In this document: one piece after another, positions 24,323-43,164 of the stretch | Position numbering within the stretch: position 1 is the stretch's first letter | Layout of the letters: the number at the start of each line of letters is the position of its first letter | Origin: Lepidostoma basale | Taxonomy: Eukaryota; Arthropoda; Insecta; Trichoptera; Lepidostomatidae | NCBI GenBank assembly: GCA_022606425.2 | Contig: JAHDVF020001024.1 | Location: 1,240,001 to 1,304,000, forward strand | Length of the DNA stretch: 64,000 nucleotides | Reading direction: 5' to 3' | The notes under the pieces: generated by a model | What the model saw: the letters and a program-made list of their open reading frames with translations, nothing else | What the model was told of the DNA's origin: nothing | Database searches by the model: none | Translations under genes and position numbers: made by a program

Positions 24323-25657
24323 ATGAAAGAAGATTGTGCAATAAAAAAAAGTGATGGCTTTAATGTTAAAAACATTGTGGCCATATCAACAATGGGGTTG
24401 GCTCAAGCGATGGCTGGGGGCTTTGTAGGGGTCTATATTGCGGTTTTTTATACCGATGTGATGGGCATCAGTGCAGCATCGATGGCTCTATTGTTACTGC
24501 TTGCGAGGCTATGGGATGCGATTAATGACCCTCTGGTTGCTATCTACATGGATAACAGCCCGCAAACTAAAATAGGTAAGTATAAGCCGTTTCTCCTTAT
24601 AGGTAATGTACTGGTAACTATTTTCACTATACTAATGTTTACCGTACCAAATCTTAGCGGTGGTGGTAAGTTGCTCTATGCTTACGTTACCTATTTCAGT
24701 TGGTCACTGGCCTATACGCTTTTTCCTGTTGCACCGATTATTTCGGCCATCACGAGGAGCCCCTTAGAGCGCTCAACGGCCGCCACGGCTCAACGCATTG
24801 TGGTCTTGGTGGTGGGCTTTAGCGCCGCAGCCTTTATGCCTTTAACCGAGAAGCTGGGAGGAGGTGCGGTAGGATTTCATCAGTCGATCATGATTTTTAT
24901 GATTCCACTGATGCTTATTTCACTGGGTGGTAGTGTGCTTGTAAAGGAGCCTCCGATCGTGGCTCAAAAGGGTGATAAGGTTGTTTTTAAAGATCTCATC
25001 CTTCTTTTTGTTGAAAATCGTGCCATGGCTATTTTTGCACTCTACATCTTTGTCAATGGTATGGTAATGCCATTTATGAATGCTGCCTTAGTTTATTATG
25101 TTAAATATAGCTATGGCGTTGACAAAATGCTTTATATTATGCCTCTAGCCATGGGGGGATTTTTAGTAGGGGTAACATTAACTGGCATTATTTTGCGCTT
25201 TATTAGCCGTAAAAAACTACTGATCATAGCCTATGTGCTTCAGGCTACGGTTTTCTTTTTGCTGTTTGCCTTACAGTCGATTCCCTTTGGGCTCGCCTTT
25301 ATTCTGATTGGCTTGGCCGACCTTGCGATGGGCTTAACGGTTACCCCGCAAACAACGATGACGATGGAGATTATGGACTACAATCAGGTTCATCGGGGCA
25401 AACGCATGGCCGCCGTTATTGCCGCGATGGAGCTCTTTTTAAGCAAGCTTCAGGGGGCACTAGCGGGTGCTGCCGTCGGTCTCACCCTTGCGGTGGTAGG
25501 ATTTGTTGCTAATGAAGAGATGAGCCCATCAGTTTTTCGAGGACTGACGGTGATAGGCTTTTTGATTCCTGCCCTCTTTGCCCTGCTTTCGGTTGTTGTT
25601 CTTTTCTTCTATCCGATTAATGAGGAGGATGCCATTGAGCTCGCATCGCAGCTATAG
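24323..25657 (+). CDS. GPH-family sugar:cation symporter (MFS_2), candidate sulfoquinovoside importer
   Basis: 444 residues with about 12 membrane segments. It has the GPH/MelB pattern: ARLWDAINDPLVAIYMDNS followed by KIGKYKPFLLIGN. E. coli YihO and YihP, which import sulfoquinovose glycosides, belong to this family. Together with the downstream beta-barrel gene this recalls the E. coli ompL-yihO pairing, and the sulfoglycolysis operon begins 1.4 kb downstream. Substrate is therefore inferred as sulfoquinovose or its glyceride. Another glycoside is possible, since the operon also carries an SSS symporter. Confidence 0.75.
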   Translation: MKEDCAIKKSDGFNVKNIVAISTMGLAQAMAGGFVGVYIAVFYTDVMGISAASMALLLLLARLWDAINDPLVAIYMDNSPQTKIGKYKPFLLIGNVLVTIFTILMFTVPNLSGGGKLLYAYVTYFSWSLAYTLFPVAPIISAITRSPLERSTAATAQRIVVLVVGFSAAAFMPLTEKLGGGAVGFHQSIMIFMIPLMLISLGGSVLVKEPPIVAQKGDKVVFKDLILLFVENRAMAIFALYIFVNGMVMPFMNAALVYYVKYSYGVDKMLYIMPLAMGGFLVGVTLTGIILRFISRKKLLIIAYVLQATVFFLLFALQSIPFGLAFILIGLADLAMGLTVTPQTTMTMEIMDYNQVHRGKRMAAVIAAMELFLSKLQGALAGAAVGLTLAVVGFVANEEMSPSVFRGLTVIGFLIPALFALLSVVVLFFYPINEEDAIELASQL

Positions 25658-26939
25658 AACAATGCAACTGATTATTTTGATGCTAATGGTTTTTAACCCC
25701 TTTAACATTTTATCACAAGAGGTCGATATCGATCGAGAGAGAGAGCAAATTGAGCATGCTCGTGGTGAGAAAGAGGCCTCTTCATCAAAAATTATTTTTA
25801 ACGGCATGCTCTATATGATGGGCTGGGTGGGGAAGGAGACTAACTATGCCTATATCTATGATAATGACAGCTATATTGGATTAGGCTATAACTTTAGCAG
25901 ATATTCTAAGGTATTTTTAGATATCAAGTTGGCAGATATTTTGAAGCCAAGTAATGGGTGGGCCGATAGCGAAATGTATGGGGAGGTTGACTTTTTAGCC
26001 GAAGCGAATATTGAGGGCTATAGCCTTATCCTTAAACTGGGTAAATTTAATAGTAAAAATAGCTACTTTGGTGAGTATGCGATGGGCATTGGTAAAGATT
26101 TTATTGCCGACAAGAGAGCTAACTTGGATATGATGAATGGGAAGTTAACCTTTAGGGTAAATAGGCCAAAACTACCACTGGAGCTGAGCTTCATGAGTGA
26201 TTTAGACTTTGGACAGCGTCCATCACCTAGCACTGATGCGGTAACCGACTGGAATAACAAAGGACTTTCATTGATAGGTGATGCTAAAGTTACGGCATTG
26301 CCATTGAGTAAACAGCTTTTTTTGAGCCTAGACCTTTTTTATAATGATCAATTTTATCTTAATGAAAAAAAAGGCGATTTTACGGCTAATAATGGCAACT
26401 ATATCGATACTAATAACCGCACAACCTATTTAGGCGGATCAACTAGACTCCTTTTTAATCAATCTCAGGTAATTAGCTACTCGGTTGGTACAGGTGCTAA
26501 ATATTTTGATGTTAAAAAAGATGGTCGTAAAACAGTTACCCTTGCTGATCAATCAACAAGTTATGAAGCATTTAGTAGTAGAGAGCGAGGTACAGACTTT
26601 GATGTAGGCTTATGGCTAGGTAACTATCACTTTATTGATGGGCGTATAGCATTTCAGCAAATTAATGAAGGGCAAAAAGCAGCCCAGCGTACGATTGGTA
26701 TTGAAACAAATCTCTATATGATTCCTCAAGTAACCATTTATGGCGGGGTTGCCGTAGCCTTAGAGGAGCATCTTATTAATTATGGTCATAGCCTGGATGA
26801 GGGGAAGGCACGTTATGGGTGGGATATAGGCATGATCTACCGTCCCGTTAGTGGGGTGCTACTTACAGGAGGATGGCAAAAAATGGTTAGGTTTGATGAC
26901 ATGGGCTATTTCTATATTAAGGCTACCTATTGGTGGTAG
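25629..26939 (+). CDS. Outer-membrane beta-barrel protein, possible porin
   Basis: About 436 residues: basic n-region and hydrophobic signal (MQLIILMLMVFNPF, then NILSQ), then alternating amphipathic strands with many aromatic ends, finishing in TYWW. This is the composition of an outer-membrane barrel; I cannot assign a named family. I start at 25629 so the signal peptide has a basic n-region; 25620 and 25662 are alternatives. The start overlaps the symporter gene, so the two are coupled. By analogy with OmpL of the E. coli sulfoquinovose cluster it may let the sugar through the outer membrane. Confidence 0.65.
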   Translation: MPLSSHRSYRTMQLIILMLMVFNPFNILSQEVDIDREREQIEHARGEKEASSSKIIFNGMLYMMGWVGKETNYAYIYDNDSYIGLGYNFSRYSKVFLDIKLADILKPSNGWADSEMYGEVDFLAEANIEGYSLILKLGKFNSKNSYFGEYAMGIGKDFIADKRANLDMMNGKLTFRVNRPKLPLELSFMSDLDFGQRPSPSTDAVTDWNNKGLSLIGDAKVTALPLSKQLFLSLDLFYNDQFYLNEKKGDFTANNGNYIDTNNRTTYLGGSTRLLFNQSQVISYSVGTGAKYFDVKKDGRKTVTLADQSTSYEAFSSRERGTDFDVGLWLGNYHFIDGRIAFQQINEGQKAAQRTIGIETNLYMIPQVTIYGGVAVALEEHLINYGHSLDEGKARYGWDIGMIYRPVSGVLLTGGWQKMVRFDDMGYFYIKATYWW

Positions 26940-26964
26940 CCCTAGGATAAAAGATAAAAGAGCT

Positions 26965-27006
26965 ATAATCGTCAAATTTAATATTTATAAAAAATTTGAC
27001 GATTAT
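26965..27006. promoter_or_regulatory. 15-bp inverted repeat over the transaldolase promoter -35 box
   Basis: Perfect 15-bp arms (26965-26979 and 26992-27006) with a 12-base centre. The right arm contains the -35 box TTGACG. No T-tract follows, so an operator is more likely than a terminator. Confidence 0.6.
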
Positions 27007-27024
27007 TAAAAAGCGTGTTACCAT
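26996..27024 (+). promoter_or_regulatory. Sulfoquinovose operon promoter
   Basis: TTGACG (26996-27001), 17-base spacer, TACCAT (27019-27024). The first palindrome overlaps the -35 and the second overlaps the -10, a typical repressor arrangement. Confidence 0.55.
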
Positions 27025-27051
27025 TAATTAATTTAATAAATTAATTAATGG
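27021..27051. promoter_or_regulatory. 31-bp palindrome before the transaldolase gene (ROK operator candidate)
   Basis: Perfect 15-1-15 palindrome (half-site CCATTAATTAATTTA) ending 9 bases before the ATG. ROK-family repressors such as NagC/Mlc bind AT-rich palindromes of this kind; a ROK regulator ends this operon. Confidence 0.7.
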
Positions 27052-27060
27052 GGGCTTGTA

Positions 27061-27744
27061 ATGAAATATTTTTTAGACAGTGCTAAACTAGAGGAGATTA
27101 AGGAAGCCTACGGTAGCTTTGGAATCAATGGGGTAACCACTAACCCACGCCATATTATGAGCAGTGGTAAATCGTTTATCACCGTTATTACCGAGTTAGC
27201 CCAATGGGTTAAGGATGAGCACATCGAGGGCTTTGAAAGGTTTCCTATTTCGGTTGAAATCAATCCACATCTAGGTGAGGCATCGTTAATGGTGCAAGAG
27301 GCTAAAAAAATTGCCGCTATCAGCAGTAACTTTGTCATTAAAATTCCCTGTACCGAGCAGGGTATTATTGCTGCACGCCTGCTAGAGCAGCAGTCGATTC
27401 GTACCAATGTTACGCTCGTTTTTTCAGCCGCCCAAGCACTGTGGCCTGCTAGGTCAAATTCACTTTTTGTCTCACCCTTTATTGGCTGGAAAGAGGCCAA
27501 TGGTGAGGATTGTAAAGACTATATCAGCAACATTGTCTCCTGCTATAAAAATTATGGCTTTTATGGTCAAACCCAAATTATTTGTGCGGCTGTACGCAGT
27601 GCCAAGCAGATCATCGACTGTGCGGTAGCGGGAGCCGATATCGTTACAACGGGGTTAGATATCTATAAAGAGAGCATAAAGCATCCCTATACTAACCAAG
27701 GGCTATCTATTTTTTGTGATGCTTGGGATAACACGGCAAAGTAG
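27061..27744 (+). CDS. Transaldolase family, candidate 6-deoxy-6-sulfofructose transaldolase
   Basis: 227 residues, TalC/fructose-6-P aldolase-type fold. Catalytic Schiff-base lysine K94 (VIKIPC), with D6 and N28 (TTNPR) in the usual places. In the sulfo-TAL pathway a transaldolase of this class moves the dihydroxyacetone unit of sulfofructose onto glyceraldehyde-3-P, giving fructose-6-P and 3-sulfolactaldehyde (SLA). Association with a sulfoquinovosidase supports this over a housekeeping transaldolase. First gene of the operon. Confidence 0.82.
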   Translation: MKYFLDSAKLEEIKEAYGSFGINGVTTNPRHIMSSGKSFITVITELAQWVKDEHIEGFERFPISVEINPHLGEASLMVQEAKKIAAISSNFVIKIPCTEQGIIAARLLEQQSIRTNVTLVFSAAQALWPARSNSLFVSPFIGWKEANGEDCKDYISNIVSCYKNYGFYGQTQIICAAVRSAKQIIDCAVAGADIVTTGLDIYKESIKHPYTNQGLSIFCDAWDNTAK

Positions 27745-27777
27745 GATGATAAAGCAATAAAAAGAGAGGGGGAGACA

Positions 27778-28638
27778 ATGACGATAGGATTTATTGGGCT
27801 CGGCATCATGGGAGAGCCGATGAGCCAAAATATTCTTAAAAAACATAATGATCGGCTTTATGTTTATGACCTTGTTAAGGCTAATGTTGATCAACTGGTG
27901 CTCCATGGTGCCGTTGCTGGGAAAAGTGCTGTTGATGTAGCCACCAAGGCAGATATTATTATTAGCATGGTGCCCAAGTCTGAGCACAGCTTGGCTCTTT
28001 ATGGCGATATTTTAGATTGCCTTGATCAGTCTAAAATATGTATTGATATGAGCACGATTGATCCTGATGTTTCGATGAGGATTGCATCGATGGTTAAAGC
28101 GACAGGGGCAGATTTTTTTGATGCCCCTGTGGTTAAGTCAAAGCCGGCCGCCATTAGTGCAACACTAGGCATCTATATTGGTGGTGATAGCAAAAACATT
28201 GAAACGATTAGGCCTATTTTGGCCTACATGGGAAGTAATATTATTCATATGGGTGATAACGGCCAAGGACTTGCCATGAAGATTTGTCATAATGCCTTGG
28301 TATCACAGATACAGAATGGGGTGAATGAGACCTTGGCTTTGGCCTCTTATTATAGCATCAATATTGATCAATTTGTAACCGCTGTTTCCTATGGTGGGGG
28401 GCAAAATTTCTATTTAGATGCTAAAGCACAGGCGATTAAGAGCAGTAACTTTAGCCCAGCCTTTTCGGTAGAGAATATGGATAAAGATATTAAGATCTGC
28501 CTTGAGATGGCTTCACGGGTGGGACTTCCGATGAGATCTCAAGAGCAGGTGGCACAGGTTTACCAAAAAGCCATCGAGCGGGGCTATGCTCAAGAAGATT
28601 TTTCTGCCACGATTAAGGTTGTTAAAGAGCATGATTAA
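27778..28638 (+). CDS. 3-hydroxyisobutyrate dehydrogenase-family reductase, candidate SLA reductase
   Basis: 286 residues with an N-terminal Rossmann motif (GLGIMG, 7-12) and the catalytic lysine K168 in GQGLAMKICHN. E. coli YihU, which reduces sulfolactaldehyde to 2,3-dihydroxypropane-1-sulfonate (DHPS), is in this same family. It directly follows the transaldolase that would make SLA. Tartronate semialdehyde reductase is the usual alternative name but does not fit the neighbours. Confidence 0.82.
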   Translation: MTIGFIGLGIMGEPMSQNILKKHNDRLYVYDLVKANVDQLVLHGAVAGKSAVDVATKADIIISMVPKSEHSLALYGDILDCLDQSKICIDMSTIDPDVSMRIASMVKATGADFFDAPVVKSKPAAISATLGIYIGGDSKNIETIRPILAYMGSNIIHMGDNGQGLAMKICHNALVSQIQNGVNETLALASYYSINIDQFVTAVSYGGGQNFYLDAKAQAIKSSNFSPAFSVENMDKDIKICLEMASRVGLPMRSQEQVAQVYQKAIERGYAQEDFSATIKVVKEHD

Positions 28639-29302
28639 GCTACTTAGCGAGCTTAATAGCTATCCAATCAACAATGTTAATGATTGTAAAAAATTTAAAC
28701 TCTACGGAAAAGTAATAGATGGCTACAATTTTAGTGGAATTGTTGACTACATGGTTAATAACACGACGATTCCTGATGAGGGAAATATCTACCTTGCATC
28801 GGTTGATGAGATGGAGGCCTACCCCATTAAGGAGCAGCTTTCTCAGGGGCTATATGGCGGTATGCCTATCCAGATAGGCTACTGCAATGGTAGAAATAGT
28901 ACATACAATGGCTTTGAATATCATAAGGGTAGTGAAATAAATATTGCCGTTACAAGCTTTGTAATGGCTTTAGGCCACCAATGGGATATTACAGGTAACC
29001 ATTACCATGTTGACCAGGCCGAGCTTTTTTTTGTTGAACAGGGCAGTGCGATTGAGCTTTATCAAACCACCTTGCATCTAGCCCCCCTGCGTGTGAGCCA
29101 TGCAGGCTTTAAAAATATTGTCGTTTTACCACAAAACACTAATAGCCCACTAAGCTACATCAAGGAGATTACAACGGAGGAGGATCGACTACTTCTCCAG
29201 ACCAATAAGTGGGTCATAGCCCACCCGACGAGGGAACCACTCATTAAACAGGGTGCCTTTGCAGGGTTATTGGGAGAAAACAGGGAGTTTTACTATCAGT
29301 AG
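28631..29302 (+). CDS. DUF4867-like cupin protein, possible sugar isomerase
   Basis: About 223 residues. I recognise the DUF4867 pattern: YGGMPIQIGYCNG, then YHKGSEINIAVT and ELYQTTLHLAP. The second half looks like a cupin with a possible metal site (GNHYHVDQAELFFVEQG: two His and a Glu). Similar genes occur in sulfo-TAL clusters of Firmicutes as far as I recall; a role in sulfoquinovose isomerisation or mutarotation is inference. The start at 28631 (ATG inside the last codons of the reductase) gives an 8-base overlap. Confidence 0.7.
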   Translation: MIKLLSELNSYPINNVNDCKKFKLYGKVIDGYNFSGIVDYMVNNTTIPDEGNIYLASVDEMEAYPIKEQLSQGLYGGMPIQIGYCNGRNSTYNGFEYHKGSEINIAVTSFVMALGHQWDITGNHYHVDQAELFFVEQGSAIELYQTTLHLAPLRVSHAGFKNIVVLPQNTNSPLSYIKEITTEEDRLLLQTNKWVIAHPTREPLIKQGAFAGLLGENREFYYQ

Positions 29303-29339
29303 TAAAACATTATAGAAGATTTTTACAAGGAGAAAAAAA

Positions 29340-31097
29340 GTGATACACTTAGGCTTTACATTTTTTACCTTTGTTTTTTTTACAGCACTTGTTGCGATCA
29401 TCTCAATAAAAATAGTTAAAAATAGTGATAACCAAATAACAACTAAAGGCTACTTTTTGGCAGGTAATGGCCTAGGTGGTTTTTTTATTGCCGGCTCGAT
29501 GCTGCTAACAAATATTTCGGCTGAAAACCTTGTTGGGCTAGCAGGGCAATCCTACCGAGCCAATATGAGTGGCATGGCATGGGAGTCTACGGCGGTTATA
29601 TCCACTGTGGTGATGGCTTTTGTTTTTCTACCTGTCTACCTACGTAAAGGCTATACTACCCTATCAGAGTTTATGGAAGAGCGATATGGTATTTTTATTC
29701 GCCGTATGGTATCAATTCTATTTTTAGTCGGCTACTTGCTGGTGGGTATTCCCGTCTCCCTTTATGCGGGGGCGATCGCTTTTAATCAAATTTTTAATCT
29801 TCATGAGGTACTTGGGATAGGTATCCATAGCTCTTTAACTCTTTTAATTGTACTATGTGGCCTTATTGGGGCCTTGTATGCTGTCCTTGGCGGCATGAAG
29901 GCGGTGGCGGTCTCCGATACCGTTAATGGTGTTCTTCTTGTGATAGGCTCTACGATTGTTATTGTCTTTGGCTTTATTGCCTTAGGTAAAACATTGGGTG
30001 GTGGCTTTATGATGGGGGTGGAGGATGTTTTTAGGAACAACCCAGAAAAACTTAATGCCATTGGTGGTAAAAATGACCCTGTTCCTTTTGGGACTATTTT
30101 TACTGGGCTGATGCTTGCTAACCTATTCTATTGGGGTACCAACCAAGTACTGATTCAAAGAGCTTTAGGTGCTAAAAATTTAAAAGAGGGCCAAAAAGGG
30201 GTTTTACTTTCTGGCTTTTTGAAAATGATGGTGCCGATGTTACTGGTATTTCCGGGCCTGATTGCAGCACGCCTTGTACCAGGACTACCTATTAGTGATT
30301 TTGCCTATCCCTCTCTTGTCGCAGCCGCTTTACCATGGCCTGTAGTGGGGCTTTTTTGTGCGGCGTTGTTTGGAGCCATTATATCTACCTATAACTCATT
30401 TTTGAATGCAGCGAGTACAGTTTTTATGGTTGATATATATAAGCCAATTTTTAATAAAAATATTTCCGAACGTGATACGGTTACGATGGCTAAAAAAGTC
30501 GGCTGGCTTTTTGCAATTTTTTCAATTGCCTTTACACCATTTTTAAATGTGCTAGGTTCAGGCCTCTATGACTTTGGTCGTAGTTTTACCGGCTTTTATA
30601 ATATTCCTATTATTACCCTGGTACTTGTTGGTATGTTTTCTAAGACAGGTTCAACACTGGGTGCTATTTGTGCCACAGCGTTTCATATTTTCTTTTATTC
30701 AGGCTTTAAATTTTGGTTTCAACACATCGACTCAGCCTTTACCCATATGATCACCCAAATTCACTTTGCCCATATTTATGGTATATCCTTCATCATCATG
30801 CTCATTATTATTTTTATCTGTAGTAAAATATCACCTAACACCAAAGAGTTTAATAAAGAGAGCCGTACGGTTAATGCCAATTACGATATGACGCCCTGGC
30901 AGCATAAGAATGTTGTAGCGATTTGGCTGATCTCCTTTCTATTTTATCAATATTTTATCTTCTCACCAGCGGGTATTGCAACTAGTAATCCCAATAATGG
31001 CTTAATCGCCCTCGTAACCATGGCACTTGTGCTAGAGACGATCGTGCTAGTGATGGTAAGCAAGAAGGGTAGAAATGTTAAGATGGAGGTAGTATAG
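29340..31097 (+). CDS. SSS-family sodium:solute symporter
   Basis: 585 residues with about 13-14 membrane segments; the SLC5/SSS core is clear (LTNISAENLVGLAGQSYRANMSG near residue 60, and GALYAVLGGMKAVAVSDTVNG). Likely imports sulfoquinovose or sulfoquinovosyl glycerol with sodium. GTG start with AAGGAG upstream; the stop is directly followed by the sulfoquinovosidase ATG. Confidence 0.8.
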   Translation: MIHLGFTFFTFVFFTALVAIISIKIVKNSDNQITTKGYFLAGNGLGGFFIAGSMLLTNISAENLVGLAGQSYRANMSGMAWESTAVISTVVMAFVFLPVYLRKGYTTLSEFMEERYGIFIRRMVSILFLVGYLLVGIPVSLYAGAIAFNQIFNLHEVLGIGIHSSLTLLIVLCGLIGALYAVLGGMKAVAVSDTVNGVLLVIGSTIVIVFGFIALGKTLGGGFMMGVEDVFRNNPEKLNAIGGKNDPVPFGTIFTGLMLANLFYWGTNQVLIQRALGAKNLKEGQKGVLLSGFLKMMVPMLLVFPGLIAARLVPGLPISDFAYPSLVAAALPWPVVGLFCAALFGAIISTYNSFLNAASTVFMVDIYKPIFNKNISERDTVTMAKKVGWLFAIFSIAFTPFLNVLGSGLYDFGRSFTGFYNIPIITLVLVGMFSKTGSTLGAICATAFHIFFYSGFKFWFQHIDSAFTHMITQIHFAHIYGISFIIMLIIIFICSKISPNTKEFNKESRTVNANYDMTPWQHKNVVAIWLISFLFYQYFIFSPAGIATSNPNNGLIALVTMALVLETIVLVMVSKKGRNVKMEVV

Positions 31098-33101
31098 ATG
31101 AATTTACATGTAACGGAGAGAGGATTTATCCTTTTAAAGGATGGAGAGGCGATACTAGAGCATAGCCCGCAACAGCCGTTAATCTACCTTGGATTGGGAA
31201 CCGAAGATGTGCAGATGTATAGAGGTAACTTTAACATTAGCGACTATGTTGAGCAACGTTACCCCCTACAGATGAGTAACATTGAGGTAGTAGAGGGTGG
31301 CTATCAAATTGATTTTGAGGGAAAGCTTGGGCTTGAGCTATTAGTAAGCGGAGAACAGGCACTGTTAAATTTTAAGGCAGCCGATGAGCTTGCTAACCGC
31401 TTTTGGATACGGCTTTGTGCCACGAAGGAGGAGAGGTGTTACGGCTGTGGTGAGCAGATGTCTTACCTTAACTTACGGGGGAGAAATTTTCCCTTATGGA
31501 CATCTGAGCCTGGGGTTGGCCGCGATAAAAGCAGCTACATAACGTGGCGCTCTGATGTTGAAAACAAGGCGGGGGGTGATTATTATAATACTAACTTTCC
31601 ACAACCTACCTTTATATCAAGTAAACATTACTACATGCATCTTGAGACGACGGCCTACGCTGATTTTGATTTTAGAAATGACTCTTTTCATGAGCTTCAA
31701 AGCTGGGAGATTCCAAAACAGATTCGTATAGAGACGGCACCTACCTATAGAGAACTTTTAACCAAACTTACCCATTTTTTAGGGCGCCAAGGCGAGCTAC
31801 CCTCATGGGTTTATAATGGCCTTATCATGGGTGTCCAGGGGGGAGGTGAGCGCTCTTTTAAACTTCTTGATGAATCAATTAATCAAGGGCTCAAAATAGC
31901 CGCCGTTTGGTGTCAGGACTGGGCAGGCAAGAGAGTTACCTCTTTTGGTAAAAGGCTGCAGTGGGACTGGCACTATAACCCAGAGATGTATCCTGAGCTA
32001 CCCCAAAAAATTAAAGAGCTTAAAAAGCGAGCTATCCGTTTTTTAGGCTATGTCAATCCCTACTTGGTGAATGATGGGGTGCTGTATAAAGAGGGCAAAG
32101 AAAAAGGTTTTTTTGCTACTAAAGCTGATGGCAGCGACTATTTAGTCGATTTTGGTGAGTTTTACTGTGGTGTTGTCGATTTAACTAACCCCTCTGCCTA
32201 CAGCTGGTTTAAGGGGGTTATTCAGCAGTATAGCATCGATATTGGTATTGATGGTTGGATGGCTGATTTTGGTGAATATCTGCCTACGGACGACATTGTT
32301 TTACATAGCGGGATTAGTGCCATGAAAGAGCATAACCACTGGCCTCTACTATGGGCTCAGTGTAACTACGATGCGGTGGCTGAGAAGGGCAAAACAGATG
32401 AGATTCTCTATTTTATGAGGGCAGGTGGAGCCCGAATCGCGGGCTATTGTCCTTTACTTTGGGCTGGTGACCAGTCGGTCGACTTTTCGCTCCATGATGG
32501 CCTAGCCTCTACCATTTGTGGTGCCTTAAGTGCTGGTATGAGCGGTGTAGGTATCAGCCATAGCGATATAGGTGGCTATACCTCACTATTTGAGAACATC
32601 AGAAGCCGAGAACTTTTTTTACGCTGGGCCGAGATGGCCATGTTTACCCCAGTGATGCGAAGCCATGAAGGTAATCGTCCCGATACTAATTTTCAATATT
32701 ATAATGACCCTAAGGATATTAAGGCCTTAGCACGATTGGTTGATATTTATGTCATGCTTAAACCTTATATGCAGCATGTCGTTAAGGAAAATAGCTTGGA
32801 GGGTATACCGGCTCAGCGCCCTCTTTTTCTTCATTACGAGGATGATGAGGCTACCTATCATATTCAGTATCAATATCTTTTGGGTGAGGATCTGCTTGTT
32901 GCTCCGGTCTACCTCGAGAATCAAAATCGCTGGAGCCTCTACCTGCCGGAGGATGAGTGGGTTCATCTTTGGAGTGGGCAAAACTATCGTGGAGGTAGTA
33001 TCAGTGTGGAGGCACCCTTGGGCTACACTCCTGCGTTTTATCGAAAAAAATCGAACTATGCCGATCTTTTTAGGCAAGTAAAAGAGTGCTATGGATCGTA
33101 G
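31098..33101 (+). CDS. Sulfoquinovosidase (GH31, YihQ-type)
   Basis: 667 residues. It follows E. coli YihQ closely. Nucleophile D390 (GWMADFGEYLP) and acid/base D458 (WAGDQ) are present. The residues that hold the sulfonate in YihQ (Q288, R301, W304, Y508) align with Q273 (WCQDW), R286 and W289 (FGKRLQW) and Y494 (SDIGGYT). The enzyme cleaves sulfoquinovosyl glycerol to sulfoquinovose and glycerol; without a signal peptide it acts in the cytoplasm. These residues separate it from ordinary alpha-glucosidases of the family. Confidence 0.92.
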   Translation: MNLHVTERGFILLKDGEAILEHSPQQPLIYLGLGTEDVQMYRGNFNISDYVEQRYPLQMSNIEVVEGGYQIDFEGKLGLELLVSGEQALLNFKAADELANRFWIRLCATKEERCYGCGEQMSYLNLRGRNFPLWTSEPGVGRDKSSYITWRSDVENKAGGDYYNTNFPQPTFISSKHYYMHLETTAYADFDFRNDSFHELQSWEIPKQIRIETAPTYRELLTKLTHFLGRQGELPSWVYNGLIMGVQGGGERSFKLLDESINQGLKIAAVWCQDWAGKRVTSFGKRLQWDWHYNPEMYPELPQKIKELKKRAIRFLGYVNPYLVNDGVLYKEGKEKGFFATKADGSDYLVDFGEFYCGVVDLTNPSAYSWFKGVIQQYSIDIGIDGWMADFGEYLPTDDIVLHSGISAMKEHNHWPLLWAQCNYDAVAEKGKTDEILYFMRAGGARIAGYCPLLWAGDQSVDFSLHDGLASTICGALSAGMSGVGISHSDIGGYTSLFENIRSRELFLRWAEMAMFTPVMRSHEGNRPDTNFQYYNDPKDIKALARLVDIYVMLKPYMQHVVKENSLEGIPAQRPLFLHYEDDEATYHIQYQYLLGEDLLVAPVYLENQNRWSLYLPEDEWVHLWSGQNYRGGSISVEAPLGYTPAFYRKKSNYADLFRQVKECYGS

Positions 33102-33112
33102 GGTAAGAGAGA

Positions 33113-33850
33113 ATGACTTTATCTCTGTTAGCTTTTTATTTGGTTATTTTTTTCTCTAACATTATACAGGCTATTACAGGCTTTGCCGGTACACTTTTGG
33201 CCATGCCACCAAGCCTGATGCTTGTTGGTTATGGGGTAGCTAAACCTGTTTTGAACCTCCTAGGGCTATTGGCAGGGGTGGCCATTTGTATAGGCTCCTA
33301 TCGCTATGTTGATTGGCTATACCTAACAAAGGCGATGGTAGGCACCACGCTGGGGGTCGCCTTGGGCTTTATACTGAAACCCTATGCGATGGGCTATCAA
33401 GAGATGCTTTTAACACTGTTAGCGATCATGATTCTGTTTTTATCACTAAAGGGGCTTATCTCTGCGGGGAGGCTACCTCAAGAGATCAAGAGGCAATCAG
33501 AGGTTAAGGGCTATCTTTTATTAATACTAGCGGGTATTGTCCATAGCTTTTTTGTTGTAGGTGGGCCACTGGTGGTTAGCTATTTTTCGAGCCGTATTAG
33601 CGATAAAAGAGCCTTTAGGGCAACAATATCGGTTGTTTGGATTTTTTTAAACTCAATTATTTTGGCACAAGAGGTAGTGGGTGGGCAGTGGAGTATGAAT
33701 CTTTTAAAAACACTGCTCATTGCACTTCCCTTTTGGTGGGGTGGCATGGTGGTCGGTAGGTGGCTCTACTCTAAGATAGATCAAAAAATATTTACACTAT
33801 TAACCTACCTGTTACTCTTTATTTCTAGTATTTTTTTACTCATCAAATAA
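33113..33850 (+). CDS. TauE/SafE-family exporter, candidate DHPS exporter
   Basis: 245 residues, about eight membrane segments. The TauE/SafE (DUF81) pattern is visible: an N-terminal NIIQAITGFAGTLLAMP and a repeat in the second half (GIVHSFFVVGGPLVV). Members export sulfonates; in sulfo-TAL clusters a protein of this family is taken to release the C3 sulfonate end product. Confidence 0.8.
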   Translation: MTLSLLAFYLVIFFSNIIQAITGFAGTLLAMPPSLMLVGYGVAKPVLNLLGLLAGVAICIGSYRYVDWLYLTKAMVGTTLGVALGFILKPYAMGYQEMLLTLLAIMILFLSLKGLISAGRLPQEIKRQSEVKGYLLLILAGIVHSFFVVGGPLVVSYFSSRISDKRAFRATISVVWIFLNSIILAQEVVGGQWSMNLLKTLLIALPFWWGGMVVGRWLYSKIDQKIFTLLTYLLLFISSIFLLIK

Positions 33851-33875
33851 TATAAGGTAAAAGAGGAGAATTTTT

Positions 33876-35024
33876 ATGAGAAAAGCATTTATTAGTCCAA
33901 GCAAATATGTGCAGGGCGAAAATGAGTTGGTAAATTTAGGCTATTTTGTTAAAACTTTTGGGCAATCAGCACTCTTAATTGCCCATCCTAGTGATATTGA
34001 GCGTGTTAAAAGCCAACTCAATGCAACAGCTGAGGCATTTTCGGTAACTTTTATCGAGAGTAATTTTGGTGGTGAATGCTCACGAAGTGAGGTAGAGCGC
34101 CTTAAAAAAATTGCTAAAGAGCATCAGTGTGGCTGTACCATTGGCCTAGGGGGAGGCAAGGCGATTGATACAGCCAAGTGTGTTGCTGAGGGTGAGGCCT
34201 TAATAATTGTACCAACCATTGCCTCAACAGATGCACCTACGAGCCATTCGGCCGTTCTTTATAAGGAGGATGGCTCTTTTGATGACTATGCCTACTTTAA
34301 ACAAAGTCCTAGCGTTGTTTTGGTCGATAGCACGATTATTGCCCATGCTCCAAGCCGTTTCTTGGTTGCGGGGATGGGTGATGCCCTCTCCACCTATTTT
34401 GAGGCTCGAGCCAATGATCGTTCCTATAGCCCTGTTAATGCCGGTTTACCATGTGGCTACCGAGAAAAGAGGTGTGATGCTGCTATAGCCACCAAAGCAG
34501 CGATGGCTTTAGCGACGTTGTGCTATGAAACACTCTTGGCAGATGGTTATAAGGCCTTGGTTGCGTGTGATGCTAATGTCGTCAATCAATCGCTTGAAAA
34601 TATTATTGAGGCCAATATACTGCTGTCTGGGTTAGGCTTTGAAAGTGGAGGGCTTGCGGCAGCCCATGCGATTCATAATGGACTAACCATTTTAGAGCAG
34701 AGCCATCATTACTATCATGGTGAAAAGGTTGCCTTTGGTACCTTGGTTCAGCTTGTTTTAGAAAATGCCCCGATGGATGAAATTAATAGGGTGTTGACCT
34801 TTTGTACGATGGTAGGTCTACCCATCTGTTTGGAGGATATTGGTGTTAAAAGTATCAGCGATGAGCAGCTTGCAGAGGTTGCTAAAAAGGCATCACTAGA
34901 GGGAGAATCTATTCATGCGATGCCATTTAAGGTGACAGCAACGATGGTGATGGCGGCGATTAAAAGTGCTGATCGAATAGGGATGGATCACAAAAAGGCA
35001 TCAAACAGTAGGAGCAATCAATAG
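33876..35024 (+). CDS. Glycerol dehydrogenase (GldA family)
   Basis: 382 residues, iron-type alcohol dehydrogenase family. NAD site GLGGGKAIDTAKC, and the metal-binding region with histidines (GGLAAAHAIHNGL and YYHGEKVAFG). It oxidises glycerol to dihydroxyacetone. In this operon glycerol would come from sulfoquinovosyl glycerol, and the next gene phosphorylates dihydroxyacetone. Glycerol-1-P dehydrogenase is less likely. The stop overlaps the next GTG by one base. Confidence 0.85.
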   Translation: MRKAFISPSKYVQGENELVNLGYFVKTFGQSALLIAHPSDIERVKSQLNATAEAFSVTFIESNFGGECSRSEVERLKKIAKEHQCGCTIGLGGGKAIDTAKCVAEGEALIIVPTIASTDAPTSHSAVLYKEDGSFDDYAYFKQSPSVVLVDSTIIAHAPSRFLVAGMGDALSTYFEARANDRSYSPVNAGLPCGYREKRCDAAIATKAAMALATLCYETLLADGYKALVACDANVVNQSLENIIEANILLSGLGFESGGLAAAHAIHNGLTILEQSHHYYHGEKVAFGTLVQLVLENAPMDEINRVLTFCTMVGLPICLEDIGVKSISDEQLAEVAKKASLEGESIHAMPFKVTATMVMAAIKSADRIGMDHKKASNSRSNQ

Positions 35025-36769
35025 TGAAAAAATTAATTAATAACGTAGAAAATATTGTTGATGAAATGTGCCGTGGTATGGCTTTAGCCCATCCATCGCT
35101 GATGCTTATTGACCAGTATCGTATCTTAATAAAGAAAACGCTGCAGTCAGATAAGGTAACCCTGATCAGTGGTGGGGGCAGTGGGCATGAACCGGCCCAT
35201 GCCGGCTTTATCGGTGATGGATTGCTTGATGTTGCTATTTGTGGCGATGTATTTGCCTCCCCCTCTCAAGTACAAGTCTACCAGGCGATTAAAAAGAGTG
35301 CCTCAACCAAAGGGACATTGCTGATTATTAAAAATTATAGTGGCGATATCATGAATTTTAAAAATGGGGCAGTGATGGCCCGTGAAGAGGGGATAGAGGT
35401 TGACTATGTTAAGGTTGATGACGACATTGCCGTGCAAGATAGTCTCTATACGGTGGGGAGAAGAGGGGTAGCGGGTACGGTTTTTGTTCATAAAATAGCG
35501 GGGGCGGCGGCCGAAGGGGGTGCGAGCCTCGTAGAGGTTAAAGCCTTGGCCCAGAAGGCGATTGACCATGTAAAGTCGATTGGTTTTGCCTATAGCTCTT
35601 GTACCGTACCGGCGAAGGGTAGCCCTACCTTTAGCCTTAATGACAACGAGATGGAGTATGGTGTTGGCATTCATGGCGAGCCTGGCATCAGCAAGGAGAG
35701 CGTTGTTTCGGCTACAGAGCTGGCCCACAAGATGGTTGGTGCATTGAGCAGCGAACTGGCCTTAACCCAAGGCAGTGATATTGCCTTGCTGATTAATGGC
35801 TTTGGAGCAACCCCTTTGATGGAGCTTTATCTCTTTAATAATGCTGTTCGCTATGAACTAGAGCAACGAGGTATTACTACCTACCGAAGTTTTGTTGGTA
35901 ATTATATGACTAGTATCGATATGGCTGGAGCCTCACTCTCGTTCTTAAAGCTTGATGATGAACTTAAGTCTCTTCTTGATGCCCCATGCAGCAGCCCTGC
36001 TTTTCATGTAGAGGGCCGAGTAGAGCCGACAAACTACAGCGATGATCAAAGGGGGGCTTCATGGGCATCAAACAATTCTAGTGCGGTGCTGCCTGGTAGC
36101 TATGGAGTTATTGAAGATAATAGCTTAACTCTGCATAATTTTTTCTTTATGGTTGATCAAATGGCCCAAATCATTTTTAAAAATGAGCAAGCTTTTTGTG
36201 AACTTGATGCGGTAGCAGGTGATGGTGATTTTGGCATGAGCGTTGCCAAAGGCTTTAGAGAGCTAAAGGAGCAGTGGCCTCTACTGGTAGAGGAGTTATC
36301 AATAGGCTCTTTTTTAAATAGCTGTGCTCTTATTATTATGGAGCACTGTGGTGGTGCTTCAGGACCTATTTGGGGTAGTGCCTTTAGAGGTGCGGCTCAA
36401 AGTGTTGGACACAAAGAGATGATTAACCTAGAAGAGTTTAGCATCATGATGGATAGTGCCACGAAGGCTGTTCAACAGATGGGTGAACGGTCATTTGGTC
36501 GGGGGGCACAGGTAGGCGATAAAACATTGATTGATGCCTTAATACCTGCGGTAGAGTCACTAAAAAAAGAGCCTGCTAATAACAGCAGTATTAAAAAAGC
36601 CTTGGTTGTTAGTGCAGAGGCAGCCGTTAAGGGGGCTAAAACAACCGAAAAATTTGTAGCACGGCTAGGTCGAGCAGGCACGGTGGGGGAGCGTAGTTTG
36701 GGCCACCCTGATGCAGGAGCTCACGCGTTAGGGGTGATTTTTACCGAAATAGCAGCGGCGATGCAATAA
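35024..36769 (+). CDS. ATP-type dihydroxyacetone kinase (DhaK-DhaL fusion)
   Basis: 581 residues: DhaK domain (1 to ~330; GGGSGHEPAHAGF, and GIHGEPG with the histidine that binds dihydroxyacetone) and DhaL domain (~365-581; AGDGDFG with the magnesium-binding Asp residues). The fused form uses ATP rather than PEP. It gives DHAP, feeding the glycerol part of the sulfolipid headgroup into glycolysis. GTG start shares a base with the gldA-like stop. Confidence 0.9.
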   Translation: MKKLINNVENIVDEMCRGMALAHPSLMLIDQYRILIKKTLQSDKVTLISGGGSGHEPAHAGFIGDGLLDVAICGDVFASPSQVQVYQAIKKSASTKGTLLIIKNYSGDIMNFKNGAVMAREEGIEVDYVKVDDDIAVQDSLYTVGRRGVAGTVFVHKIAGAAAEGGASLVEVKALAQKAIDHVKSIGFAYSSCTVPAKGSPTFSLNDNEMEYGVGIHGEPGISKESVVSATELAHKMVGALSSELALTQGSDIALLINGFGATPLMELYLFNNAVRYELEQRGITTYRSFVGNYMTSIDMAGASLSFLKLDDELKSLLDAPCSSPAFHVEGRVEPTNYSDDQRGASWASNNSSAVLPGSYGVIEDNSLTLHNFFFMVDQMAQIIFKNEQAFCELDAVAGDGDFGMSVAKGFRELKEQWPLLVEELSIGSFLNSCALIIMEHCGGASGPIWGSAFRGAAQSVGHKEMINLEEFSIMMDSATKAVQQMGERSFGRGAQVGDKTLIDALIPAVESLKKEPANNSSIKKALVVSAEAAVKGAKTTEKFVARLGRAGTVGERSLGHPDAGAHALGVIFTEIAAAMQ

Positions 36770-36795
36770 CTAATTTAATGATAGAGGACAATAAA

Positions 36796-38136
36796 ATGAA
36801 CAATTTTCAAGTGGCCTATGTGCCTATTGGGGTAGCAACCTTTGATCTTGATGCGGCAGGGGCTCTTTTTTATGAATCGATTAAGCTACTTCAATCGATT
36901 CATGACGATGTTGTCTCTCCTGAGCACATGCTTTTAACGATGAGTGATTTAAAGGACTATATGGGCTCTATTAACCCAACACTACTTATTGTACAAAATA
37001 TTACATTTGCTAATGCTGCCTACATCGGTGAAATTGTTAGGAGAAGTGGGGCACCTATTGTACTATGGACGCTAAGAGAGCCTATTGTTGATGGGGGTAG
37101 ATTAAGACTTAATTCATTAACCGGGGCCTACTCCGCAGCCAATGCCCTACTAACATTAAGAGGTGGCTCCTTTAGCTATATCTTGGGAATGCCTGATGAG
37201 AGCTCTGTAGCTAAAAAGATAGAGGCTAACATCAAGGCAGCAGAGATTAAAAATAGGCTGAGCGAGATAACCATCGCATCAATTGGCCATACCCCCGAAG
37301 GATTTGGATTTGGCCGAGCACTGGATATCGATTTACTGCATTTTTTTGGTGTCAACTTTGAGTCGATAGAGGCCCGTCAGTTAATGGAGAGTGCCAGGGG
37401 CTATAGTGAGGAGGAGGTAAAAGACTATCTTCGTGAGATGAACCAAAAAACTGTAGGGCTTGAGGCGATTAATGATCGAAATGTTCTTGATGCTGCCAGG
37501 CTCTACAAGGCCTATGCGAGCTATGTTAAGGAGAAAAACATTGCAGCTATAGCATCACGCTGTTGGCCAGATTTTTTTACCAGCTTTGGTACACCCGTTT
37601 GTGCTATCCTGGGGATGCTGAATGAGATGGGGGTTGCCGCTAGCTGTGAGGCTGATGTCTATGGTGCTCTATCAATGTATATTGCCATGCAACTATCTCA
37701 TAAGGCCGTGTTTTTTGGCGATCCCGTCTCGATTAACGAGGATGACAATAGTATTACCTACTGGCATTGTGGTACGGCTGCCTGTAGCTTGGCCCACCCC
37801 GCTACAGGAGCTCAAATGGGGCTTCATCCTAACCGTAAAATTGGTCCTGTGATGGATTTTGGCTGCTACCCTAGCGAGGAGGTGACAATATTTAGAATAG
37901 GACGTAAAGCTAATGGAGGCTTTAGAGTCTTCTTAATGAAGGGCAAGGCTTTAGATCGAGCGAAGCAGTTTACAGGGACGACGGCCGTGGTACAGATCGA
38001 GAGGCCCATCGGTACGATGGTGGAGGAGAGCATCAAAGATGGCTGGGAGCCCCACTTTGTTGTTATCTATAGTGATGAGGTTGAGTCGATCAAAGTATTC
38101 TCTCAGATGCTAGATTTGGAGCTATGTATTTATTAG
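36796..38136 (+). CDS. L-fucose/L-arabinose isomerase-family protein, candidate sulfoquinovose isomerase
   Basis: About 446 residues with the fucose isomerase-like fold (N-terminal Rossmann-like half; ALSMYIAMQLS and the metal-region CEADVYGAL; C-terminal HCGTAACSLAHP). Its aldose-ketose isomerase class suits the missing step from sulfoquinovose to sulfofructose, which no other recognisable enzyme here covers except the DUF4867 cupin. Start 36796 is chosen over 36778 because AGAGGA lies at the right distance. Confidence 0.75.
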   Translation: MNNFQVAYVPIGVATFDLDAAGALFYESIKLLQSIHDDVVSPEHMLLTMSDLKDYMGSINPTLLIVQNITFANAAYIGEIVRRSGAPIVLWTLREPIVDGGRLRLNSLTGAYSAANALLTLRGGSFSYILGMPDESSVAKKIEANIKAAEIKNRLSEITIASIGHTPEGFGFGRALDIDLLHFFGVNFESIEARQLMESARGYSEEEVKDYLREMNQKTVGLEAINDRNVLDAARLYKAYASYVKEKNIAAIASRCWPDFFTSFGTPVCAILGMLNEMGVAASCEADVYGALSMYIAMQLSHKAVFFGDPVSINEDDNSITYWHCGTAACSLAHPATGAQMGLHPNRKIGPVMDFGCYPSEEVTIFRIGRKANGGFRVFLMKGKALDRAKQFTGTTAVVQIERPIGTMVEESIKDGWEPHFVVIYSDEVESIKVFSQMLDLELCIY

Positions 38137-38180
38137 GGCTAATAGTCTATACTTCACCCACGAGATAACAGAGAGGGGTG

Positions 38181-39413
38181 ATGCACCGATTGAGCGGAAA
38201 GGAAGTAGTTAAAAAGAGCACCGCAGACGATATTTTGGCCTTGCTTTATGCTAAGGGGGCAATGTCCAGAAAAGATATTGCCTCAGTCCTTAATTTAAGC
38301 CGAGCAACACTTACGGTGCTATCGAGTAGACTAATAGAGCAGGGTTTACTGATTGAGAAAGGGAAAAAAGCTCAAGAAAATGGTGCTGGTAGAAGAGAGA
38401 TATTACTTGATATTAATGTCTGCTATCAATATGTTATGGCTGTTACCATCGAAAGCAGCCAGGCAGTGATTACTGTGTGTAATCTTAAGGCCTCTCCTAT
38501 CGACCAAAACAAAATTTTACTGACAAATAATCTAAAGCCCAAGGAGCTACTTAGCTTAATTGCCCATCAGTGTCAAAGGATGTTAAAGCACCATGATATT
38601 GCTCTTAGCCAGTTACTAGGGCTAGGTTTTTCTTTGCCGGGCTTCGTTAACCGACAGAGGGGTACCAGCATGCACTGCCACGCTCTTTGGCAGGATGAAG
38701 TCGATGTTAGGGGGGTGATGGAGGATCTCATGGGATGCTCAGTAATCATTGAAAACAACATCAAGTCCTTTGCTGAAGGCGAGTTGCTTTATGGATTAGG
38801 GAGGACGGCAAGCAATATTCTCTTTATAAAATGGGGCCCTGGGGTGGGGGCAACGATGGTCGTTAATGGTAGGCTCTATGAAGGAGGCTATTCTAAGACG
38901 ATGGATCTTGCCCACTATATTGTTGATGATAGGGAAAATAGTTGTTGGTGCGGGCGTATTGGCTGCCTAGAGGCTTTAGTATCGGTTGATACACTTTTTA
39001 CTAAAATACGTGGGCTCTATAGTGAGCAAAAAACCCCCTATCTCTTTAGACAAAGCGGTGGGAATATTAATAGTTTGACCAATGATTTTCTTCATGATTG
39101 GCTAGGTGCCCTAGAGGAGACTCCCCTGGATCAATTAGACCCCTCAATTCATCTGCTTTTAAAGCAAAGCATTGCCTACCTAGCCTTAGTAGCGGTTAAT
39201 AGTGCAACGATGTTAGCCTCTAGCCATATCATTTTACTGGGTAGCATGTTGCAAAATAGAGGGATACGCACCAGCTTTATTGAACATTTCCAGCTTATTA
39301 ACCAGGGCTATTATTTAGGATTAATCGAGCAGTCGCCACTGAATAACCAGCGTCTTTATATTGGTGGTGTGGCGATTATTGTCCGTGAATATTTTTTAAA
39401 GTTAGGCTTGTAA
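38181..39413 (+). CDS. ROK-family transcriptional regulator
   Basis: About 410 residues. N-terminal winged helix-turn-helix (MSRKDIASVLNLSRATLTVLSS), then a ROK domain with the zinc motif CWCGRIGC and a phosphate-binding GPGVGATMV. Sensing a sugar or sugar phosphate is typical. As the last gene of the sulfoquinovose operon it is the natural candidate to bind the palindromes at 26965-27051. GTG at 38178 is an alternative start. Confidence 0.85.
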   Translation: MHRLSGKEVVKKSTADDILALLYAKGAMSRKDIASVLNLSRATLTVLSSRLIEQGLLIEKGKKAQENGAGRREILLDINVCYQYVMAVTIESSQAVITVCNLKASPIDQNKILLTNNLKPKELLSLIAHQCQRMLKHHDIALSQLLGLGFSLPGFVNRQRGTSMHCHALWQDEVDVRGVMEDLMGCSVIIENNIKSFAEGELLYGLGRTASNILFIKWGPGVGATMVVNGRLYEGGYSKTMDLAHYIVDDRENSCWCGRIGCLEALVSVDTLFTKIRGLYSEQKTPYLFRQSGGNINSLTNDFLHDWLGALEETPLDQLDPSIHLLLKQSIAYLALVAVNSATMLASSHIILLGSMLQNRGIRTSFIEHFQLINQGYYLGLIEQSPLNNQRLYIGGVAIIVREYFLKLGL

Positions 39414-42465: not shown

Positions 42466-43164
42466 TTGATGTTTAACCCAGACGACTATCAAGACTATAT
42501 AGCAATACCCAACGAAGAGCTACTACCTGCTCTAGGCTGTACAGAGCCTATTGCCGTCGCCTATGGTGCGGCATTAGTGTGCGAATTACTACCAACATTT
42601 CCAACTAAAATAGCTATCGAGGCCAGTGGTAATATTTTAAAAAATGCTAAGAGCGTTGTTGTACCCAACACGGGTGGCCTTAAAGGCATGCAGGCATCGC
42701 TACTAGCGGGGATGGTTGGGGGCAATAGCCTGCTTGGGCTGGAGGTGCTTTCACAGCTGAGTGCTGACCATGTCGTAACCATTGCAGGCCTTATGAATAG
42801 TGGCTTAGTGACGATTACGGAACTGCAGAGCCCATCGACATTGCACATGATTATTAGAGCCCAGACGTTGGAGCATGAGGCTGTAGTTGAGATAAAAAAT
42901 CAGCATACCAATGTGGTACGGCTAACACTTGATGGCCTTGATAGGCTGACTAAGGAGAGTTGCCCTAGTAAAATAGCCAGTGGCATCGAGGCGGCCTTTC
43001 AAGGGCTGCATTTAGCAACCGATGGCAAGGTCTATAGCCATGGCTGTGGTATTGTTGAGCACGATGTGGAGGCCACCATTGCCAATGTTGGACGCCTTGG
43101 GCGTGAGGGGATGAGCGGTACCGATAAAGTGGTGCTTGATATTATGACCCACATCAGTAATTAG
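42466..43164 (+). pseudogene. L-cysteine desulfidase-like (UPF0597, YhaM/CyuA) with internal deletion
   Basis: 232 residues against about 430 in the family. The N-terminal ~160 residues match (LPALGCTEPIAVAYGAA; VVPNTGGLKGM) and so does the C-terminus (GIVEHDVEATIANVGRLGREGM). About 200 central residues, which carry most iron-sulfur ligands, are missing. The junction lies near KESCPSKIASG, and the frame stays open across it. The product probably cannot hold its cluster. A compact new variant is the alternative. SD AAGGGGG precedes the ATG. Confidence 0.75.

Follow-up and report, generated by a model that had tools for sequence, protein, structure and literature searches.

Judged by sequence, a spirochaete of the Entomospira lineage carries a complete sulfofructose-transaldolase (sulfo-TAL) gene set for the fermentation of sulfoquinovose (SQ), the sulfur sugar of plants and algae. 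The genes lie in a 64,000-nucleotide stretch of the Lepidostoma basale assembly (hereafter the window; positions 1240001-1304000 of contig C102, which has 1,639,099 bases). ORF calling and family scans identified 12 intact open reading frames (ORFs), all on the + strand, between window positions 24323 and 39413. The ten that occupy 27061-39413 are assigned from their sequences to a sulfo-TAL cassette, in the order SftT, reductase, SftX, SSS symporter, GH31 glycosidase, TauE-type permease, glycerol dehydrogenase (GldA), dihydroxyacetone kinase (DhaKL), SftI and ROK-family regulator. The computation yielded gene identity, residue conservation, gene order and lineage; we give a probability of about 0.9 to the reading that these genes form a sulfo-TAL operon, obtained by horizontal transfer and probably inducible, in a spirochaete of the Entomospira lineage living with a larger organism.

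An original prediction made from the letters of the window had proposed transaldolase-type sulfoglycolysis in a spirochaete. Every gene that it listed is present as an intact ORF, and the proposal holds: SftT, SftI, SftX and the GH31 enzyme match sulfo-TAL families, genes for the reductase and the TauE permease are also seen next to SftT elsewhere, and the ribosomal protein RpsC of the window groups with Entomospira. Missing from that list were SftX (a DUF4867 protein), GldA, the dihydroxyacetone kinase, the SSS symporter of the cassette, an outer-membrane-type protein and the ROK regulator.

Core enzymes and their recurrence beside SftT

The first gene of the cassette (27061-27744) encodes the SftT/SqvA-type transaldolase of sulfo-TAL clusters. 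Comparison with characterised enzymes, proposed along with the prediction of an FSA-type transaldolase, gave 61.8% identity to the solved Bacillus enzyme BmSF-TAL (8bc3) as against 26.8% to E. coli FsaA. 8bc3 is also the best solved relative, at 284 bits, with the next family (1vpx) reaching 138 bits. The protein keeps K94, which we take to be the Schiff-base lysine of SftT, and has F140, W143 and A177 as in BmSF-TAL, at positions where FsaA has Y, R and S. A housekeeping transaldolase is ruled out by the similarity to 8bc3 and by these BmSF-TAL-like residues.

The GH31 enzyme (31098-33101) is identical to E. coli YihQ at 335 of 663 aligned residues. As predicted, the YihQ residues D405 and D472, which we take to be the catalytic pair, are conserved (here D390 and D458), and so are Q288, R301, W304 and Y508 (Q273, R286, W289 and Y494), presumably those of sulfonate recognition. 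The protein therefore has the aspartate pair and the sulfonate-binding Q, R, W and Y of a sulfoquinovosidase (SQase). Among solved structures it is closest to 6pnr (1109 bits, deposited as 'Alpha-glucosidase'), 8r56 (936 bits, 'Glycosyl hydrolase, family 31') and YihQ itself (5aed, 784 bits); the best solved chain beyond this YihQ-like group scores 156 bits. The model NF007746 (PRK10426, named alpha-glucosidase) is matched at 964 bits, with a cut-off of 553. An ordinary alpha-glucosidase is ruled out by the solved relatives and the conservation of the YihQ residues. No signal peptide was seen by eye.

SftX (28631-29302) is the DUF4867 cupin metalloprotein (SftX/SqvB) of sulfoglycolytic clusters, matching PF16161 at 246 bits and the solved DUF4867 protein 9gyy at 231 bits. 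The solved protein is presumably SqvB from B. megaterium (PMC11968277), for which a function is unproven. One genome (G002) has two DUF4867 genes on two contigs (loci L083 and L086), each with a reductase, TauE and SftI, so that either the cassette is duplicated or the bin is mixed.

A scan of genome contigs with an alignment of 18 SftT sequences gave 578 confirmed stretches, of which the best 80 were used. Homologues were counted by tblastn in these loci, which were picked by SftT and many of whose contigs end early. Besides SftT (80 loci), the reductase is found in 68, SQase and SftI in 60 each, ROK in 44, and SftX, TauE and a major facilitator superfamily (MFS) symporter in 42 each; GldA, DhaKL and the SSS symporter occur in two each and the porin-like protein in none. 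Loci L003 ([Clostridium] citroniae) and L007 read SftT-reductase-SftX-SSS-SQase-TauE-SftI-ROK, which is the order of the window minus GldA-DhaKL, at 35-73% identity. Since the SQ gene set recurs beside SftT elsewhere, twice in identical order, chance is excluded.

SftT, reductase, SftX, SQase, TauE, SftI and ROK are common to the window and to Firmicutes sulfo-TAL (sulfo-SFT) clusters (L003, L007, Eubacterium rectale, Enterococcus gilvus), and with the clostridial L003 and L007 the window also shares the SSS symporter and the gene order. It differs from the Firmicutes clusters in belonging to a spirochaete, with an outer membrane, in the GldA-DhaKL pair between TauE and SftI, and in a pair of MFS and porin-like genes ahead of the cassette. 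Epulopiscium L040 and Anaerotalea L001 resemble it in having GldA (70%) and DhaKL (59%) beside SftT, SftI and SQase, but their order differs and no SSS symporter match was seen in their own stretches. The E. coli yih region (sulfo-EMP) has a YihQ-type SQase, a beta-hydroxyacid dehydrogenase reductase, GPH symporters and a porin gene as well; unlike the window, it employs a kinase and a sulfofructose-phosphate aldolase in place of the transaldolase, together with another isomerase and another reductase pocket. The transketolase (sulfo-TK) pathway described for spirochaetes, Sphaerochaetaceae among them (PMC13219744, PMC12890257), resembles the window in its SQ isomerase and in SQ fermentation, but has a transketolase for the transaldolase and forms isethionate or sulfoacetate in place of 2,3-dihydroxypropane-1-sulfonate (DHPS). 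A sulfo-TK cluster would contain the transketolase SqwGH; family scans of the 12 genes gave no match to a transketolase family.

Isomerase, reductase and limits of the operon

The last gene of the cassette (38178-39413) encodes a ROK-family transcriptional regulator of the NagC/Mlc type (PF00480, 87 bits, with N-terminal winged-helix matches; NagC model 118 bits, below its cut-off of 650). A candidate operator lies upstream of sftT on the + strand (26996-27051), where a promoter-like site, TTGACG-17-TACCAT (9/12), accompanies a perfect palindrome with 15-bp arms (27021-27051) between the porin-like gene and sftT. Promoter-like sites as such are not enriched in the region (43 versus 34.8 in shuffles, standard deviation 6.5). 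The palindrome motif was searched for upstream of the window cassette and of 79 loci (L036, with too little upstream sequence, was omitted). It occurs at p<=0.05 in 24 of these 80 regions, L003, L007, L013, L031, L062 and L065 among them, where about four would be expected from dinucleotide shuffles, for a motif that is A+T-rich and derived from the window itself and in loci that are related. This supports a candidate ROK operator that would have moved along with the cassette.

Some results weigh against the sulfo-TAL reading. SftI (36778-38136), an L-fucose-isomerase-related protein predicted to be the SQ isomerase (SftI/SqvD), matches the NCBI SQ-isomerase model NF048012 across its full length at 411 bits, below the cut-off of 700. 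The reductase (27778-28638; PF03446 and PF14833) has K120, H171 and V175 in place of R123, N174 and S178 of E. coli YihU, presumably substrate-binding residues. The upstream regions of L001, L040, L052 and L055 fall outside the 22 best for the palindrome motif (score at least 14). As to the isomerase, five cluster homologues of SftI used as controls (four from Firmicutes, one from L052) score 360-423 bits on NF048012, so the cut-off misses the controls as well, and the predicted isomerase-class protein can be regarded as present. SftI also scores 23 bits on the Pfam family Fucose_iso_C, below its cut-off, and has no solved relative at E<=0.001.

The original prediction had placed the reductase in the YihU family. 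It is indeed a member of the same beta-hydroxyacid dehydrogenase superfamily, 31% identical to YihU (87/285) with K168 kept, but its pocket is not of the YihU type, and it scores 163 bits on the NCBI sulfolactaldehyde reductase model NF012005 (cut-off 348). Among the reductase homologues from SftT loci (66 of 68 retained, sequences shorter than 241 residues or with an identity of 45% or less being excluded), K120 is present in all 66 and H171 in 65. The window protein fits this subtype, and we take it for the sulfolactaldehyde (SLA) reductase that accompanies SftT in Firmicutes, as distinct from the E. coli YihU type. The low identity to YihU and the three replacements would also suit a reductase that does not make DHPS, or another enzyme handling SLA, with an end product other than DHPS. 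This we consider improbable, given that a homologue occurs in 68 of the 80 SftT loci and that K120 and H171 are almost invariant there; moreover, according to PMC11489063, Clostridium symbiosum and Eubacterium rectale carry out the reduction to DHPS.

Two genes precede the region of the candidate operator. The first (24323-25657) encodes a GPH/MelB-type MFS sugar:cation symporter (PF13347, 207 bits; TIGR00792, 237 bits, cut-off 231), with about 25% identity to YihO (108/429) and YihP (107/433) of E. coli. The second (25662-26939) encodes an outer-membrane-type protein, a candidate porin, with a signal-peptide-like start and an aromatic C-terminal end (both by eye) and with no Pfam match (checked from 25758 onward). 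A search of 3767 candidates from a set of 5.8 billion proteins returned a single homologue at E<=0.001 (P0241, 47% identical), suggesting a lineage-restricted, nearly orphan protein; its AlphaFold model, made from two sequences, is unusable (pLDDT 28). P0241 lies on a contig of 1,987,311 bases, and so does P0122, the 84% relative of RpsC discussed below.

It is an even call whether the SQ unit comprises 27061-39413 only, the MFS-porin pair (24323-26939) being an independent neighbouring sugar-uptake unit of the lineage. The pair is separated from sftT by a 121-base gap with inverted repeats, the promoter-like site and the palindrome, which in its full form is found in the window only there. 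In L003 and L007 the cassette begins at SftT, and no SftT from a contig of the size shared by P0241 and the sister RpsC is among the best 120 of 4116 matches. The pair could nonetheless belong to the unit: the E. coli yih region likewise combines GPH symporters with a porin gene, ompL; a Gram-negative cell requires passage of sulfoquinovosyl glycerol (SQ-glycerol) across the outer membrane; and the two next-best palindrome sites (7 mismatches; 24255 and 24263) lie directly upstream of the MFS gene, albeit in an A+T-rich stretch.

Lineage and origin of the cassette

The RpsC gene lies about 23 kb beyond the operon end. Its nearest relatives named to species level are those of Entomospira (73-74%), while other proteins, including some from metagenome-assembled genomes (MAGs), reach 84% among the matches listed. 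In a 38-row tree of this one protein, for which 37 of the best 120 matches were used, it falls within the Entomospira clade (100/99), that is, within the Spirochaetota. The assembly (768.8 Mb, 1572 contigs) was treated as intron-bearing; coding density is 0.65-0.95 in all 25 other C102 stretches sampled versus 0.06 in a single stretch of contig C1. At 1.64 Mb, C102 comes near the 1.67-1.78 Mb given for Entomospira genomes in PMC11636382. We infer that C102 is a spirochaete chromosome co-assembled with a eukaryote. A check for circularity found no overlap between the 5 kb at its end and the 10 kb at its start, and no rRNA genes were found in the window and the 25 C102 stretches scanned.

Three of the best 80 SftT loci carry, as deposited, the labels of spirochaete MAGs (L052, L055, L057). 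These and a locus in genome G322 share SftT, reductase and SQase with the window (L055 and L057 are cut by contig ends); SftX is found in L052, L057 and G322, and SftI in L052 and G322. In the genomes of L055 and L057, SftX and SftI are on separate contigs. The four SQases are 37-44% identical to that of the window, those of L052 and L055 belonging to another clade, and the contigs of the four loci gave no match to GldA, DhaKL, SSS or the porin-like protein.

A survey covered 392 species genomes from the phylum of G001, the genome of L052. SftT was detected at E<=1e-60 in nine, SftI at E<=1e-40 in six (in four of them 51-54% identical, in the other two 25-27%) and GH31 at E<=1e-80 in 61, where many of the weaker matches are possibly other GH31 enzymes. 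At these thresholds all three occur jointly in two genomes, G001 and G322 (contig L123), and SftT with GH31 in four more genomes lacking an SftI match (G008, G091, G143, G165). The remaining seven SftT matches, in genomes other than G001 and G322, show 55-61% identity. Five of the corresponding short loci hold partial sets (TauE and ROK in G165, the reductase in G008, SQase in G091 and G143, DhaKL in G204), and those of G210 and G219 have no further members of the set. With YihQ-like GH31 far commoner than SftT or SftI, other SQ pathways may be frequent in spirochaetes. Genomes G389 and G243 each combine SftI (51-52%) with two SQase-like GH31 matches, have no SftT at the threshold, and are sulfo-TK or sulfo-EMP2 candidates.

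The original prediction was unaware of any such locus in spirochaetes. For sulfo-TAL this stands in the sulfoquinovose literature searched, which yielded no description, mostly at the level of titles and abstracts; the 2020 discovery papers may say more. The review PMC12890257 assigns sulfo-TAL to Firmicutes, Thermotogae and Chloroflexi and sulfo-TK to spirochaetes, sulfo-TK genes of rumen Sphaerochaetaceae are transcribed according to PMC13219744, and PMC13372026 describes sulfo-SMO clusters in Spirochaetota. Sulfoglycolysis itself is therefore already known in spirochaetes, as sulfo-TK, and public spirochaete MAGs already contain sulfo-TAL loci; in this wider sense the statement needs adjusting.

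The cassette was probably acquired horizontally, from Firmicutes. In the transaldolase phylogeny that the original prediction had proposed, SftT of the window falls among Firmicutes sequences with no resolved sister; the closest SftT proteins are 74-78% identical among the matches listed (best 120 of 4116). A quick SQase tree of 57 rows (the window, YihQ and 55 of the 60 locus rows, those of at most 500 residues, five in number, being dropped) pairs the window with Epulopiscium L040 (SH-aLRT 98) within the YihQ/L003 clade and splits it from the SQases of L052 and L055 (support 100). A tree of four proteins, comprising the window and the 36 of 80 loci that have all four at usable size, rejects a clade of window and L052 (approximately unbiased (AU) test, p 0.005); its grouping of the window with L001 (97/96) unites two long branches, and we place no weight on it. 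For SftT alone, a single spirochaete origin (window, L052, L055, L057) is not rejected (AU p 0.41). Trees constrained for window plus L052, or for window plus L003 and L007, beat the free quick SftT tree by 19 log units (p 0.753) and 2.8 units (p 0.538), respectively, and the quick tree is therefore untrustworthy in detail; in a careful SftT tree L052 and L055 stand apart from the window (99/95, with a bootstrap that had not settled). A single acquisition in spirochaetes is thus opposed by the four-protein, SQase and careful SftT trees, and at least two transfers from Firmicutes into spirochaetes are moderately supported, although SftT alone does not settle the matter.

That the best-matching named SftT loci are from Firmicutes could also be explained by Firmicutes DNA misjoined into the contig. 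We give this very little credence. G+C content is 43.1% in the operon versus 42.4% in the remaining window, which contains no N; the gene combination is unlike that of all the best 80 loci, at 21-73% identity per protein, too low for a recent contaminant; and the lineage-restricted outer-membrane-type gene adjoins the operon.

Proposed pathway and other genes of the window

We infer the reactions, the transport directions (SQ-glycerol import, DHPS export), the regulation, the redox coupling and the host association of the operon from the genes present. SQ-glycerol, or SQ, would enter across the outer membrane, perhaps via the porin-like protein, and then across the inner membrane via the SSS or the GPH symporter. 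The best candidate for import of SQ or SQ-glycerol is the SSS symporter (29340-31097; PF00474; NF007790, 650 bits, cut-off 401), which is 72% identical to its counterpart at the equivalent position in L003 and L007. The GPH symporter may be an importer too, its membership of the SQ unit being uncertain, or may not be one because the SSS symporter lies within the cassette. The cytoplasmic GH31 enzyme would split SQ-glycerol into SQ and glycerol, and SftI, aided in some way by SftX, would convert SQ to sulfofructose. SftT would transfer the dihydroxyacetone unit to glyceraldehyde-3-phosphate, with fructose-6-phosphate and SLA as the products. SLA would be reduced to DHPS, to be exported by the TauE/SafE-family permease (33113-33850; PF01925, 61 bits), which was rightly predicted as a TauE-type protein. 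The ROK protein would probably repress the operon via the palindrome ahead of sftT.

The original prediction had the organism ferment half of the SQ-glycerol, and thereby overlooked a probable salvage of the glycerol half. GldA (33876-35024; NF006941, 515 bits, cut-off 336; solved relative 6csj, 356 bits) would oxidise glycerol with formation of NADH, and the single-chain DhaK-DhaL kinase (35024-36769; PF02733 and PF02734; NF011049, 702 bits, cut-off 492) would phosphorylate the product. The pair could cover the NADH requirement of the reductase and refill the triose phosphate pool. In Faecalicatena, a glycerol dehydrogenase and a dihydroxyacetone kinase are reported to be SQ-induced (PMC11659671), which provides a precedent for the glycerol branch. 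Per SQ-glycerol, one NADH would be formed by GldA and one consumed by the reductase, if both share NAD(H), and two ATP would be spent (phosphofructokinase, DhaKL) for two triose phosphates gained. More tentatively, and with the odds somewhat against it, a host-associated spirochaete may ferment SQ-glycerol from the plant or algal food of its host in a redox-closed manner, GldA NADH paying for the reductase, with uptake through the lineage-specific porin and DHPS passing to the host or to sulfidogenic microbes.

If this reading is correct, no sulfo-TAL system would have been described before in spirochaetes or in a host association of this kind. A pathway known mainly from Firmicutes would, with a glycerol branch in the Entomospira lineage, extend its described reach by another phylum, and the trees suggest that the cassette moved between phyla more than once. 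The locus also suggests that sulfolipid is used by the microbiota of the co-sequenced organism, and the operon is compact enough for what SftX and the glycerol pair do to be tested.

Elsewhere in the window, a 232-residue frame with a TTG start (42466-43164) matches the alpha chain of serine dehydratase in its C-terminal part only (profile positions 181-259 of 260) and looks shortened relative to what we take to be full-length relatives. It is followed by a 1057-residue frame (43166-46339) with a methylase-like NPPY motif, seen by eye, which resembles a combined restriction-modification protein. A 761-residue frame (330-2615) has, by eye, a P-loop GMNGTGKST near its start and is possibly a defence or repair ATPase. 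Between 2621 and 11049, TonB/ExbB/ExbD-like genes, a TonB-dependent-receptor-like protein and an ECF-type transporter, likewise recognised by eye, may constitute a cofactor-uptake island.

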